Assembly: GCA_030692515.1 (NCBI GenBank)
Contig: JAUXZS010000020.1
Location: forward strand, 124,001-188,000
DNA length: 64,000 nucleotides
Direction of reading: 5' to 3'
Source: Bacteroidota bacterium
Lineage (GTDB): Bacteria; Bacteroidota; Bacteroidia; B-17B0; Aurantibacillaceae
Shown piece by piece: positions 52,988-59,218 of this stretch. A program made the position numbers and the translations under genes. Positions within the stretch are counted from its first letter, which is position 1. Every line of letters begins with the position of its first letter. The notes beneath the pieces are model-generated. The model was not told the DNA's origin and made no database searches. It saw nothing but the letters and a program-made list of their open reading frames with translations.

Positions 52988-54343
52988 GTGCTAAAACAGA
53001 TAAACTTACTTTTTTTGTTGTTACCATTTGTGGGTTTTGGGCAAGACAACACTCTTGATTCCCTTAAGTTTGCTCTAAAAGAGGCCAAACACGACTCTAC
53101 TCGCTGCAGAATTTTAAGTGCGCTTGTTGAAAATGAATATAATGAAAAAATTTGGCCCCTGTATAATGAACAGTTATTTGTTTTAAGCAAAAAAAACATT
53201 GAAAAATCAGTTTCGGATAGGGAGAAAAAAATCTTTTTAGTCTTTTTTGCAAATGCCAATAATAATAAAGGATTTCTTGCTCAAGAGCATGGCGATATTA
53301 ATCTTGCCCTAGAATGTTATTTTACATCACTAAAAATATTAGACCAAACTAAAAACAAAAAAGAAAAGGCTGTTACAATAAACAATATCGCCTATATCTA
53401 CTCGCATCAAGGTGAAACTAATAAAGCGCTCGAGTTCGTTAACAGAGCTTTAAAAATACAAAAAGAGATTAATGATAGTGCCGGCATAGCTTTTTCCTAT
53501 AATAATTTAGGGAATTTGTATAAAAACAAAAAAGAAATTGAAAGGTGCTTAAATTACTTCTCACTTTCATTAGAGTTACAAAAAAAAATAAATAATAAAG
53601 AAGGAATCTCTGTTGCGCTTTCAAACATAGGCGAAATTTATGTTCTGCAAGGAAATTCACAAAAGGGCTTAGATTATGTTAAACAAGCATTAAAAATAAG
53701 GGAGGAAATGAAAGACCTTGATGGGGTAGCTTATAATTTAAACTCATTGGCAAATATTATGTACGACTTAGGGCAATATAAAGAGGCTCTAAATTATAGC
53801 TCGCGGAGTTTTAAAATTGCAAACGAAATTAGATATATTGAGAATATTAGAAACTCATCAAAAATTCTCTACAAAATTTATAAAAATCAAAATAATAGCC
53901 AAAAAGCTTTAAAAATGTTTGAACTCTATATAAAAATGCACGACAGTATAAATAATGAAACAATTAGAAAATCTTCTATAAAAACACAAATGCTATACGA
54001 ATATCAAAAAAAATCTTTTGCAGATAGCGTTAAAATAGCTGAAGAAAAAAAAATAACTACTCTGCAATTAAAACAAGAAGCTAGTCAACGCTATTTTTTA
54101 TATGGTGGGCTCAGTGTAACTGCTTTACTTGGATTATTTATGGTTAATAGATTTAGAATAACCAACAAACAAAAAAAATTAATTACAGAACAAAAGAAAC
54201 TAGTTGAACAACAAAAACAGGTTGTAGAAGAAAAACAGAAAGAAATTTTGGATAGTATTAGGTATGCAAAAAGGATACAAATAAGTTTATTACCTAGCGA
54301 GAAATATTTAGATCGAATCTTTAATAAAAAAATTGATGAATAA
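52988..54343 (+). CDS. TPR membrane protein ending at the SpoIIE linker (first of tandem pair)
   Basis: The protein has 451 residues from a GTG at 52988. A signal peptide to about 19 (LPFVGFGQ) is followed by about six TPR units (about 95-330; repeated patterns NNIAYIYSHQGETNKALEF, NNLGNLYKNKKE). A transmembrane helix lies near 372-390, then a cytoplasmic coiled coil rich in Lys/Gln/Glu that ends KEILDSIRYAKRIQISLLPSE plus about 14 residues. In the common Bacteroidota sensor architecture this linker leads into a SpoIIE/PP2C phosphatase domain, but here the protein simply stops. It overlaps the next gene by 8 bases. It is likely a periplasmic TPR sensor that lacks its output domain; it is not obviously a pseudogene. 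Confidence 0.8.
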   Translation: MLKQINLLFLLLPFVGFGQDNTLDSLKFALKEAKHDSTRCRILSALVENEYNEKIWPLYNEQLFVLSKKNIEKSVSDREKKIFLVFFANANNNKGFLAQEHGDINLALECYFTSLKILDQTKNKKEKAVTINNIAYIYSHQGETNKALEFVNRALKIQKEINDSAGIAFSYNNLGNLYKNKKEIERCLNYFSLSLELQKKINNKEGISVALSNIGEIYVLQGNSQKGLDYVKQALKIREEMKDLDGVAYNLNSLANIMYDLGQYKEALNYSSRSFKIANEIRYIENIRNSSKILYKIYKNQNNSQKALKMFELYIKMHDSINNETIRKSSIKTQMLYEYQKKSFADSVKIAEEKKITTLQLKQEASQRYFLYGGLSVTALLGLFMVNRFRITNKQKKLITEQKKLVEQQKQVVEEKQKEILDSIRYAKRIQISLLPSEKYLDRIFNKKIDE

Positions 54344-55820
54344 ATTTTCAATATATTTATTTCTTCTTTTGCTTTCTTTAAATTGCGAACGATTATTAGG
54401 ACAAAGTAAAAGAATCGATTCCCTTATTCAGGCAATAAAAACTGCAAAACATGATACCACTCGATGTTATATTCTGAACACAATTGTTGAATCTTATGCT
54501 GAAGAAAGTATTTGGGTGAAATACAATTTGCAAATGAAAGATCTTGCAGAGAAAAATTTAAAAAACCTTGACACCAAAGACTCATTAATCAAAAAAAAAT
54601 TTTTCAAATATCTGTCTTTGGCATTAAATAATTCTGGCTATCATAGTGACTCAAAAGGCAATATACCTGAAGCGATTGAGTATTATCACCGAAGTTTAGA
54701 TATTATGACGCAAATTGATAATAAGGAAGGTATTGCTGTTTGCTTAAATAATATTGGTTTTGTTTATGATAGCCAAGGTAGCATTGCGCAGGCATTAGAT
54801 TACTATAGTAAAAGCCTTAAAATACAGGAGCAGTTAGGCAATAAAAGGGGTATTGCCCAATCTTATAACAACATTGCTAGTATTTATGAGCACCAGAACG
54901 ACATCGAAAAAGCGCTTGATTATTATAACCAAAGTTTGAAACTCAAAATAACTGTTAATGATAAACTAGGAACCGCAACTACCCTTAACAATATTGGACA
55001 TATTTATATTTTAAAAAAAGACATTAATAAGGCCATACTATACTTTCAAAAAAGTTTAAATATACATACGCAGTTAAAGAACTATAGTGGTATCTCAATA
55101 ACCTTATCCAACATTGCCGAAACATATCAGATTGTTGGTAATTACGAGAAGGCGCTAAATCTCTATTCTGAAAGTTTACTTAATGCCCGGCAAGCTGATG
55201 ATAAAGAATCAATTTTAACGGCATTATATGCCATAGGCAATGTTTATTACCTTAAAGGAGATTATAGAAAAGCATTACAATTTGTATTACCAAGTGTTGA
55301 GGAAAACAAAAAAATTGGTTATGCAGAAAACGCAAAAGGTTCCGCACTACTCTTATACTTTATATATAGTTCCTTAAAAGATTATAAAAATGCTTTATTG
55401 AATTACGAGCAATATATTCTCATGCGCGACAGCATAACAAATCATGAAACACGCAAAGCAAGTATAAAATCGCAACTTAAATATGAGTACGAGAAAAAAG
55501 CTGCGGCAGATAGCATTAAAGTTGTAGAAGAAAAAAAACTTGTGGCAGTTAAACTAAACCAAGAAAAAAATCAACGCTACGCATTATATGGTGGCATTGG
55601 CTTAGTTGCAATATTTGCAATTTTTATGGCAAACAGATTTAGAGTAACAAGCAAACAAAAAAACATTATTGAAAGCCAGAAAAAAATTGTAGAAAATCAA
55701 AAATACTTAGTGGAAGAAAAACAAAAAGAAATTTTAGACAGTATTAGGTATGCAAAAAGGATACAAACAAGTTTATTACCAAGCGAGAAATATTTAGAAA
55801 AGCATATTCCAAAAGGCTAA
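54336..55820 (+). CDS. TPR membrane protein ending at the SpoIIE linker (second of tandem pair)
   Basis: Starting at the ATG at 54336, the protein has 494 residues and is a paralogue of the preceding one. It has a signal peptide (SLNCERLLGQ), about seven to eight TPR units (about 100-375; LNNIGFVYDSQGSIAQALDY and repeats), one transmembrane helix near 420-437 and a coiled coil ending KEILDSIRYAKRIQTSLLPSE with a 10-residue tail. It too ends where a SpoIIE domain would start. The last 80 bases of linker DNA closely match those of the upstream gene. Its stop overlaps that of the converging TatD gene by 4 bases. The overlap of start and stop codons with the first gene indicates coupled translation, so the two may form a heteromeric sensor. 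Confidence 0.8.
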   Translation: MNKFSIYLFLLLLSLNCERLLGQSKRIDSLIQAIKTAKHDTTRCYILNTIVESYAEESIWVKYNLQMKDLAEKNLKNLDTKDSLIKKKFFKYLSLALNNSGYHSDSKGNIPEAIEYYHRSLDIMTQIDNKEGIAVCLNNIGFVYDSQGSIAQALDYYSKSLKIQEQLGNKRGIAQSYNNIASIYEHQNDIEKALDYYNQSLKLKITVNDKLGTATTLNNIGHIYILKKDINKAILYFQKSLNIHTQLKNYSGISITLSNIAETYQIVGNYEKALNLYSESLLNARQADDKESILTALYAIGNVYYLKGDYRKALQFVLPSVEENKKIGYAENAKGSALLLYFIYSSLKDYKNALLNYEQYILMRDSITNHETRKASIKSQLKYEYEKKAAADSIKVVEEKKLVAVKLNQEKNQRYALYGGIGLVAIFAIFMANRFRVTSKQKNIIESQKKIVENQKYLVEEKQKEILDSIRYAKRIQTSLLPSEKYLEKHIPKG

Positions 55821-57229: not shown

Positions 57230-59218
57230 TTAAATTTTAATTCCTATAATTAAAACATCATCAACTTGCTCATTATCGCCAGTCCAATCTGTAAAATTAT
57301 TTTCAAGCAGAGTTTGTTGTTCAATAGAAGGCAAATTAGAAATAGAAACTAAAACCTCTTTTAATTTTTTTGTCATCATTTTCTTTCCAACAGGACCACC
57401 AAACTGATCAGCATATCCATCGGTTGAAATAAACAAACAATCATTTTTTTGAAGGGCTATTTCTTGATTAACAAATTCCTGGTTGTTTGGCGTAAAACCC
57501 GCAATTGCAGTTTTATCAGCTTTATACTCAAGCAAAATTCCATCCCTTACTAAATATAAAGGTCTATTAGCCGCAGAATATTCTACTATACTTAAATCCT
57601 TATTAAACTTTAGTAATGCAATATCCATTCCATCTTTTTGTATAGATGCATCAGAATGCTGTTTTAAAACATTTTTTATTTGAATATTTAAAAACGATAA
57701 AATTTTATTTGGAGCTGTAATCCCTTTCTCATAAATTGCTTGTACAATTTTATCCATGCCAATAATACTCATTAATGCACCCGGCACACCATGTCCGGTA
57801 CAGTCTGCGGCCAAACAATAAAAATCATCATTTAGTTTTCCGAACCAGTAAAAATCGCCGCTAACCACATCTTTTGGTTTATAAAAAACAAAGCTTTCCG
57901 GAAACTTATTTTTCAAGTCAGCTAATTCTGGTAACACCGCTAACTGAATTCCTTTTGCATATTGTATACTATGATCGATTTCCTGCTTTTTTTCAAAAAT
58001 AATTTGATTTTGTTCTTTTAATTGAAGATTTGTTATTTGCTTTTGTTTATTTTGACGGAAAAGAAGAAACGCAATAATAATTACAACTAAACCAATAACT
58101 ACTAACACAAGAATAAAATAGCTTTTTTTCTTGTTTTTTAATTCTTCAATTTCATTAGCCTGTTTAAGTTGTGAAACATTGGTTTCAGACTTTTCAAGAG
58201 AGTAACTATTTTCCAAACTAGCTAGATTATTGGAATATGACTTTTTATCTATTTCTAATTTTTTGTTTACATAATCTTTATAAAAATCAAAGCCATCTTT
58301 ATATTTACCAATCTTATAATAAGCATTTGCTAATGGCAGTAAAATTTCAACTTCCATATCTTTAATATCATATGCTCTTGTATAATTTAATACTTTATTA
58401 AGAGTATCAATAGCATCTTTATAATTCCCAAATTCTATTTCTGTTTTAGCTAATTCGCATTTAGCAAACATCAAATTAAACGAATCCGCTTTAGTTTTGT
58501 AAATATCTATTGCGTTAGATTGATAAAATTTTGCTGATTTAAAATCTTTTGATCCATAAAACAATCCTCCTAAATTCATATAAAAAATCGCCATTGCCCT
58601 AACACTTTTATGCTTTTTACTTAAATCGATGCCTGCTTTTGAATAATAAACCGCTGAGTCAAAATCATTTTTATGTTTAAGACTACTGTATTTATCAGAA
58701 TAATAACTTCCCAAGGCATTATATATCCTTAATAAACCATTAGTATCATTTAATCGTTTAAATATCGCTAATGATTTATATAAATAAATATCGTCTTTAT
58801 AGTTATGTTGAAGTATGCAGGAAACCCAACCAAGATTATATAATGCTGTGGCAACTTGCACTTCATCATGAATAGAATCGCTAGTTCTGTAGGCCTTAAA
58901 ATAATATTTAAAAGCATTGTCGTAATTTGTTTGATTCCAATTTTCATCGGCAATGCCGGTATAGGCTATAATCTGACCTTTTGGATATTTTATTTTTATA
59001 GAAATATCTAAAGCCTCCTTAAAATATTTTAAAGCTGTAATATAATCGGTTTTTGAGTAAAAACTCCCAAGTCTATTTAGCTTCTTTACTTTAGTTGAAT
59101 CATCTTTTAATTGAGAAATTTCACTCTTTAATTCCTCAATCTCATTGTCTTTTTGAGAAAAGGAAAAAAGAAAATTCAACGAAAAAAAAAGAAAAAATAT
59201 AAATTTTAGTTTAAGCAT
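57230..59218 (-). CDS. TPR-SpoIIE (PP2C-type) serine phosphatase, membrane sensor
   Basis: The 662-residue protein has the complete architecture: a signal peptide (to about 22, FSFSQ), five to six TPR-like units (about 30-310), a coiled coil, a transmembrane helix near 370-388, a linker (KQEIDHSIQYAKGIQLAVLPE) and a SpoIIE phosphatase domain (about 430-662). The phosphatase carries the metal-binding motifs VSGDFYW, AADCTGHGVPGALMS, FISTDGYADQFGG and the final DDVLIIG. Such proteins dephosphorylate serine in anti-sigma antagonists or other partners in response to a periplasmic signal. Two phosphatase-less relatives lie 1.4 kb away. It is a single gene with a -7 element almost touching its ATG. 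Confidence 0.9.
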   Translation of the reverse strand: MLKLKFIFFLFFSLNFLFSFSQKDNEIEELKSEISQLKDDSTKVKKLNRLGSFYSKTDYITALKYFKEALDISIKIKYPKGQIIAYTGIADENWNQTNYDNAFKYYFKAYRTSDSIHDEVQVATALYNLGWVSCILQHNYKDDIYLYKSLAIFKRLNDTNGLLRIYNALGSYYSDKYSSLKHKNDFDSAVYYSKAGIDLSKKHKSVRAMAIFYMNLGGLFYGSKDFKSAKFYQSNAIDIYKTKADSFNLMFAKCELAKTEIEFGNYKDAIDTLNKVLNYTRAYDIKDMEVEILLPLANAYYKIGKYKDGFDFYKDYVNKKLEIDKKSYSNNLASLENSYSLEKSETNVSQLKQANEIEELKNKKKSYFILVLVVIGLVVIIIAFLLFRQNKQKQITNLQLKEQNQIIFEKKQEIDHSIQYAKGIQLAVLPELADLKNKFPESFVFYKPKDVVSGDFYWFGKLNDDFYCLAADCTGHGVPGALMSIIGMDKIVQAIYEKGITAPNKILSFLNIQIKNVLKQHSDASIQKDGMDIALLKFNKDLSIVEYSAANRPLYLVRDGILLEYKADKTAIAGFTPNNQEFVNQEIALQKNDCLFISTDGYADQFGGPVGKKMMTKKLKEVLVSISNLPSIEQQTLLENNFTDWTGDNEQVDDVLIIGIKI

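Follow-up and report, generated by a model that had tools for sequence, protein, structure and literature searches.

Two adjacent genes of a Bacteroidota genome, W1 (52988..54343, + strand) and W2 (54336..55820, + strand), lie in the 64,000-nucleotide stretch of DNA that we analysed (the window) and encode short TPR sensors without a phosphatase domain. We consider it probable that W1 and W2 are the sensing partners in a split TPR-SpoIIE receptor, whose shared phosphatase would be switched by a dimerisation helix supplied in trans; the missing output domain is probably explained by an arrangement in which one phosphatase, encoded separately, serves many sensors. On balance we also favour a many-to-one network, in which the diverged TPR sensors of a genome, numbering at least a dozen (this genome has 16, and probably more), would share one docking helix and a single soluble PPM phosphatase. 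What we observed is the anatomy of the proteins, the coincidence of the split point in the two halves, co-occurrence, conservation and, in part of the genomes, linkage in an operon; comparison gives good support to the coupling of sensor and phosphatase.

As listed, W1 starts with GTG and encodes 451 amino acids, and W2 starts with ATG and encodes 494. The W2 start lies inside the W1 end, giving the 8-base overlap described in the initial annotation (ATGAATAA, 54336..54343, + strand). Pfam returned TPR matches only for both proteins (the scan of W2 started at its second codon), with no PF07228/SpoIIE match in either at E ≤ 1, and the SpoIIE-type linker was recognised by alignment. The sensor layout up to this linker, followed by a stop 10–14 residues further on, was borne out, with 13 residues past SLLPSE in W1 and 10 in W2; in W1, signal peptide and membrane helix were assigned by eye and by homology. 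A hydropathy scan (19-residue window, >1.6) gave one segment in W2, at 415, and zero in W1, and neither signal peptide passed this threshold. In the AlphaFold2 model of W2, TPR helices at 25–367 are followed by a single unbroken helix at 370–480, which comprises the membrane segment, the coiled coil and the linker, and then by a break at LLP and a short low-confidence helix at 484–490 (pLDDT 62 and 54 for the final blocks). The last 42 codons, encoding the linker helix and short tail, are the proposed docking segment, which was delimited in W1 (54215..54340, + strand) by alignments and conservation, and in W2 (55692..55817, + strand) by these together with the helix, break and short helix of the model. 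The sole SpoIIE domain near W1 and W2 on contig C66 (C66:181233-181814, window 57233-57814) is that of a complete TPR-SpoIIE protein, and thus no phosphatase remnant follows W1 or W2. Stop-codon readthrough was rejected, as there is no phosphatase downstream of either gene to read into.

The C-terminal end of the short sensors is fixed far beyond chance. In the 4.33-Mb genome that contains the window, 15 short proteins found by the motif stop 27–33 residues from the motif start; the corresponding distance is 18 in one stub and 242–263 in 24 full-length proteins, and one match is cut by the locus end. One more was found by eye, bringing the short proteins whose tail is intact to 16, many of them in tandem, in addition to the dead stub; the count is probably a lower bound because several arrays run into contig ends. 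The arrays at the ends of contigs C25, C39, C50 and C67 (L061, L062, L066 and L070) consist of tandem units that resemble each other at the ends and have diverged in the TPR middles; this may have interrupted the assembly, and the number of sensors is therefore probably underestimated. We further counted the distance from linker to stop in 99 related loci (L111-L209, leaving out L081-L110 and the loci of the genome itself). Among 215 closed matches, 119 ended at 25–37 residues, of which 118 were genuine short proteins (25–35) and one, in L158, was a chance match; 84 ended at 220–299 and formed the full-length class. Two matches at 60–99 were explained by masked bases (L140) and an apparent frameshift (L168), 10 matches beyond 400 were short units fused in frame, and 4 further matches ran off the locus. 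In such fusions, as in L143 (7646-14881; likewise L191, L192, L193 and L194), up to five short units share one open frame of 2412 codons, and the tail of one unit continues into the signal peptide of the next, the junction having neither a stop codon nor an ATG but an in-frame TTG; these are natural multi-sensor proteins, or have separate starts.

Such a sharp class of tail lengths is hard to reconcile with decay, that is, with short sensors as recent truncations of full-length receptors or as a reservoir of sensor modules for recombination. The window locus, in the order UMP kinase, tsf, rplM, array and, on the opposite strand, the fused SpoIIE gene (names by sequence motif), recurs in L111, L112, L114 and L115 with 5, 6, 5 and 6 short genes, respectively; in the window, a TatD-like and a TetR-like gene, likewise named by motif, lie between array and fused gene. 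The best matches at the syntenic locus were short both for W1 (60% identity, L114 and L115) and for W2 (74–77% identity, L112 and L115). The initial annotation had taken the cut as design rather than decay, unless orthologues in close relatives carried the phosphatase domain; the same-locus orthologues were all short and, together with the two tail-length classes, these data supported both that reading and the proposed family of output-less receptors. The TPR part of W2 is also constrained relative to its orthologues (pN 0.115–0.132, pS 0.757–0.775), and synonymous sites of the linker have mostly diverged, indicating that the protein itself is kept. One dead remnant is known (G000:C41:86738-86923, L071), which retains the linker alone, with two TAA codons inside the match, and lies 3.3 kb away from the gene of a full-length SpoIIE protein; array paralogues can share near-identical ends around diverged TPR middles. 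Weighing these observations, we regard decay or a module reservoir as very improbable. For a family of output-less receptors with a conserved linker, action in trans on a SpoIIE phosphatase is our best guess. In a phylum sample of 198 genomes, in which the first pass scored part of the candidates, no row beyond this genome reached the last positions of the profile, suggesting that the family is restricted to some lineages.

A search for SpoIIE domains near short arrays revealed open reading frames of approximately 240 codons, at most 30 bp away from short genes. They encode a stand-alone SpoIIE phosphatase of approximately 236 residues, which lacks the linker helix and begins where the short sensors end. 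Most of these proteins begin with MET, followed by some residues and then by FFILYKPKDIVSGDFY, which is strand 1 of the PPM fold and lies just past the stop point of the short sensors. The split point of the sensor and phosphatase genes was the same by sequence, by alignment and in the model of the fused window protein, which shows a helix at 2–52, a break, a short helix at 56–62 and strand 1 at 66–71. All four stand-alone proteins scanned passed the curated cut-off of PF07228 (67.7–77.9 bits), and the metal-binding motifs DxTGHG, DGMD and QxDD were found in all 45 proteins compared; 38 of the 45 have the longer pattern DG[YF]ADQFGG, and the GDF motif, which falls outside the slices used for this count, was present in individual sequences. 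The copy in the genome of the window (G000:C41:207187-207894, - strand, outside the window) was the single one seen and stands alone, with no short sensor adjoining. Between this genome and G006, the stand-alone gene had a pN of 0.034 and a pS of 0.67, as compared with 0.181 and 0.721 for the SpoIIE part of a fused orthologue; the low pN of the stand-alone gene would be explained by one shared output. A different 298-codon SpoIIE protein without TPR (L072 9664-10557, G000:C25) keeps its own linker-like helix, DGLYYASHVQQGLMP, and in this differs from the stand-alone phosphatase. A first tree of the stand-alone gene, in which the broken gene of L168 was included, needed 3 changes; L168 was then dropped from the set, and one clade of stand-alone genes was not rejected (p-AU 0.228), a non-rejection that does not demonstrate a single origin.

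The stand-alone phosphatase tracks the short sensors across genomes. In the order, stand-alone genes were counted if the open frame was 232–254 and the identity at least 62%, together with G261 (179, cut by the contig end, 87%); G281 (272, at a contig start, with a linker in front), G268 (252, at a contig start, 59%), G285 (273, 57%) and G012:C63 (265, near a contig start, 54%) were not counted. Among the matches listed, 31 of the 87 genomes carry the gene, at most one each, and all 31 are scored positive for short sensors. Ranked by short-tail score, the top 27 genomes (E ≤ 1.2e-21) all carry it, again among the matches listed, the calls for G233 and G265 in this group being by tail score alone; in the remaining four of the 31 (G230, G232, G266 and G271) short sensors were recognised by rows, in G230 also by sequence. 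Only 2 of the 56 genomes without the gene score with short sensors, 47 of the 56 being judged by tail score alone. These two are G267 (58% complete) and G270 (720 contigs), in which the stand-alone gene was not seen among the matches listed. Rows were viewed for nine of the 56, and the other seven showed full-length or contig-cut proteins alone and no short sensor, with five sequence checks made in 4 of the seven and frames in G277:C452, G011:C156 and G235:C11 judged by length alone. No short sensor was found among the tail hits viewed in G252, G008 and G235, which have many SpoIIE candidates and no stand-alone gene. In a class sample of 395 genomes (open frame 236–277, identity at least 64%), 24 carry the gene, all 24 being among the 32 genomes with tail hits (G538 on one tail hit), and 17 of the 24 lie outside the order, in seven families; both counts are among the matches listed. 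Of the eight tail-hit genomes without the gene, the listed rows of G370, G472 and G592 are of full-length size. Fisher tests of the stand-alone gene against short sensors gave p values of 1.5e-21 (order) and 7e-34 (class); these overstate the association, as the tests take no account of relatedness and some genomes occur in both samples. G218 (4.9 Mb, 78% complete) had 84 short-tail profile hits at E ≤ 1e-14, which may include full-length proteins, and a single stand-alone phosphatase among the matches listed.

Gene order links the two components in part of the genomes. A short sensor lies directly upstream of the stand-alone gene, on the same strand and within 130 bp, at 11 of the 31 loci in the order and at 8 of the 17 class loci outside it, one of the eight being a 49-codon piece; G345, where a tail hit lies 44 bp from the stand-alone gene, is outside this count. 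In G006 (L147, L325) the short sensor ends 3 bp before the stand-alone frame, and the neighbourhood resembles that of the C41 locus in the genome of the window, with a 555-codon ORF and a DinB-like gene, the latter recognised by eye. In G587 the stand-alone gene is preceded by an ORF for a full-length linker protein, which counts against the split receptor. No directly upstream short sensor was found at the other 20 loci of the order, including that of the genome of the window, or at the other 9 class loci, so that sensors in these genomes would have to act in trans. The absence of adjacency from more than half of the loci, and the fact that co-occurrence is no proof of contact, leave room for short sensors that act on another cytosolic partner, with the stand-alone phosphatase as a co-inherited neighbour; we consider this improbable, given that the split points match and the co-occurrence spans several families.

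The initial annotation had proposed full-length TPR-SpoIIE phosphatases as the partners, which the short sensors could bind through the coiled coil and modulate. The complete protein of the window (57230..59218, - strand) does run on into SpoIIE, as annotated (PF07228, 48.7 bits; also by model and by alignment with stand-alone forms), and the linker is common to both. At the window locus and in L111, L112, L114 and L115 a fused gene lies 1.4–2.5 kb from the array, but the genes on the other side of the array are equally conserved in position. A full-length SpoIIE ORF also lies within approximately 110 bp of a short gene in L161, L165 and L201. The suggested check, for SpoIIE genes in the neighbourhood, found none within 6 kb on the contig at the other 10 short-sensor loci of the genome, where C67, C39 and C25 end inside arrays. 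Moreover, the occurrence of short sensors goes with the stand-alone gene rather than with how many fused SpoIIE proteins a genome has, the tail residues distinguish short from full-length forms, and pairing with full-length proteins would leave unexplained the helix-less phosphatase encoded beside short sensors. Full-length proteins as the partners were not supported, a reading that we hold to be unlikely, and the protein at 57230..59218, a fused relative used for comparison, is probably not the specific partner of W1 and W2. Short sensors may also use both partners, stand-alone and fused.

Conservation of the linker and tail was compared between short and full forms. Across 132 short and 114 full rows, linker conservation was higher in the short forms at most positions, although the loci had been found with short-form patterns, which biases the set toward similar linkers. 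After LLP, the residues E, Y, I and K/R, which lie outside the pattern, were conserved in short forms and not in full ones; tail-profile scores of the two groups overlap (58–89 bits for short proteins, up to 68 for full ones). Among array paralogues, pN was mostly 0.3–0.5 in the TPR part and 0.01–0.34 in the linker and tail, with synonymous sites mostly diverged. A function of the 3′ DNA or recent copying was unsupported as the cause of this conservation, since the synonymous sites of the linker are mostly diverged, with one pair in L143 (pS 0.127) as an exception. W2 showed the reverse trend against its orthologues, pN in the last 42 codons (0.183 and 0.232) exceeding that in the TPR part (0.115 and 0.132), which speaks against the split receptor.

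The closest solved structure to the fused and stand-alone forms was SiaA of Pseudomonas aeruginosa (PDB 6K4E). The fused window protein superposed on SiaA-PP2C 409–662 with a Z of 29.8, its helix matching the start of SiaA-PP2C, and accordingly the helix kept by the short sensors and missing in the stand-alone phosphatases should correspond to the first helix of SiaA. The SiaA-PP2C crystal dimer is made through helices 1, 2 and 3 (PMC7647112). SiaA carries a HAMP domain, two membrane segments and the helix, all in one chain, and differs in this from the helix-less stand-alone form. For RsbU and related PPM phosphatases, PMC12143880 describes a helix between sensor and PPM domain, as in the proteins studied here, which dimerises and activates the phosphatase, and a truncated form that is able to pair with a full-length one. 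RsbU-type proteins, as presented there, are sensor and phosphatase in one chain, whereas here the two are separate genes, divided where the linker ends, and many sensors correspond to one phosphatase. The fused TPR-SpoIIE receptors encoded in these genomes, for example that at 57230..59218, are alike in sensor layout, linker and phosphatase fold, but are encoded by one gene, with a less conserved linker and no conserved tail sequence after it.

From these comparisons we infer the topology, docking, binding, sign of control and target of the split receptor. The TPR solenoid, probably periplasmic, would sense a signal and pass it through the membrane helix to a cytoplasmic coiled coil ending in the linker helix and short tail, which would be equivalent to the segment leading into the phosphatase in fused proteins. 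The phosphatase half would be the separate protein of approximately 236 residues, which starts at the first PPM strand without a linker helix. As a hypothesis for docking, many sensors would share one phosphatase and switch it by giving the missing dimerisation helix in trans. The target may be a STAS-type protein in its phosphorylated form, with an RsbW-like kinase as the opposing enzyme. In the genome of the window, one clear RsbW-like kinase was found among 11 PF13581 matches (140 codons, 94 bits, C18:20136), as against 45 SpoIIE phosphatase domains, and no STAS protein was recognised by eye in the ORFs surrounding the kinase.

We found no description of a split TPR sensor and stand-alone phosphatase in the open PMC literature. 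Chemoreceptors around CheA/CheW likewise combine many diverged sensors, all with a strongly conserved cytoplasmic region, with a single output enzyme; in the present case the output would be a phosphatase, and ordered membrane arrays are not claimed. If our interpretation is correct, the split receptor would be the phosphatase counterpart of chemoreceptors around CheA and would provide an output for a large set of apparently output-less Bacteroidota TPR proteins. It would also mean that the linker helix of a PPM receptor phosphatase is able to act in trans, which would test the dimerisation model of this family directly, and would show how a lineage gains sensors without gaining enzymes.
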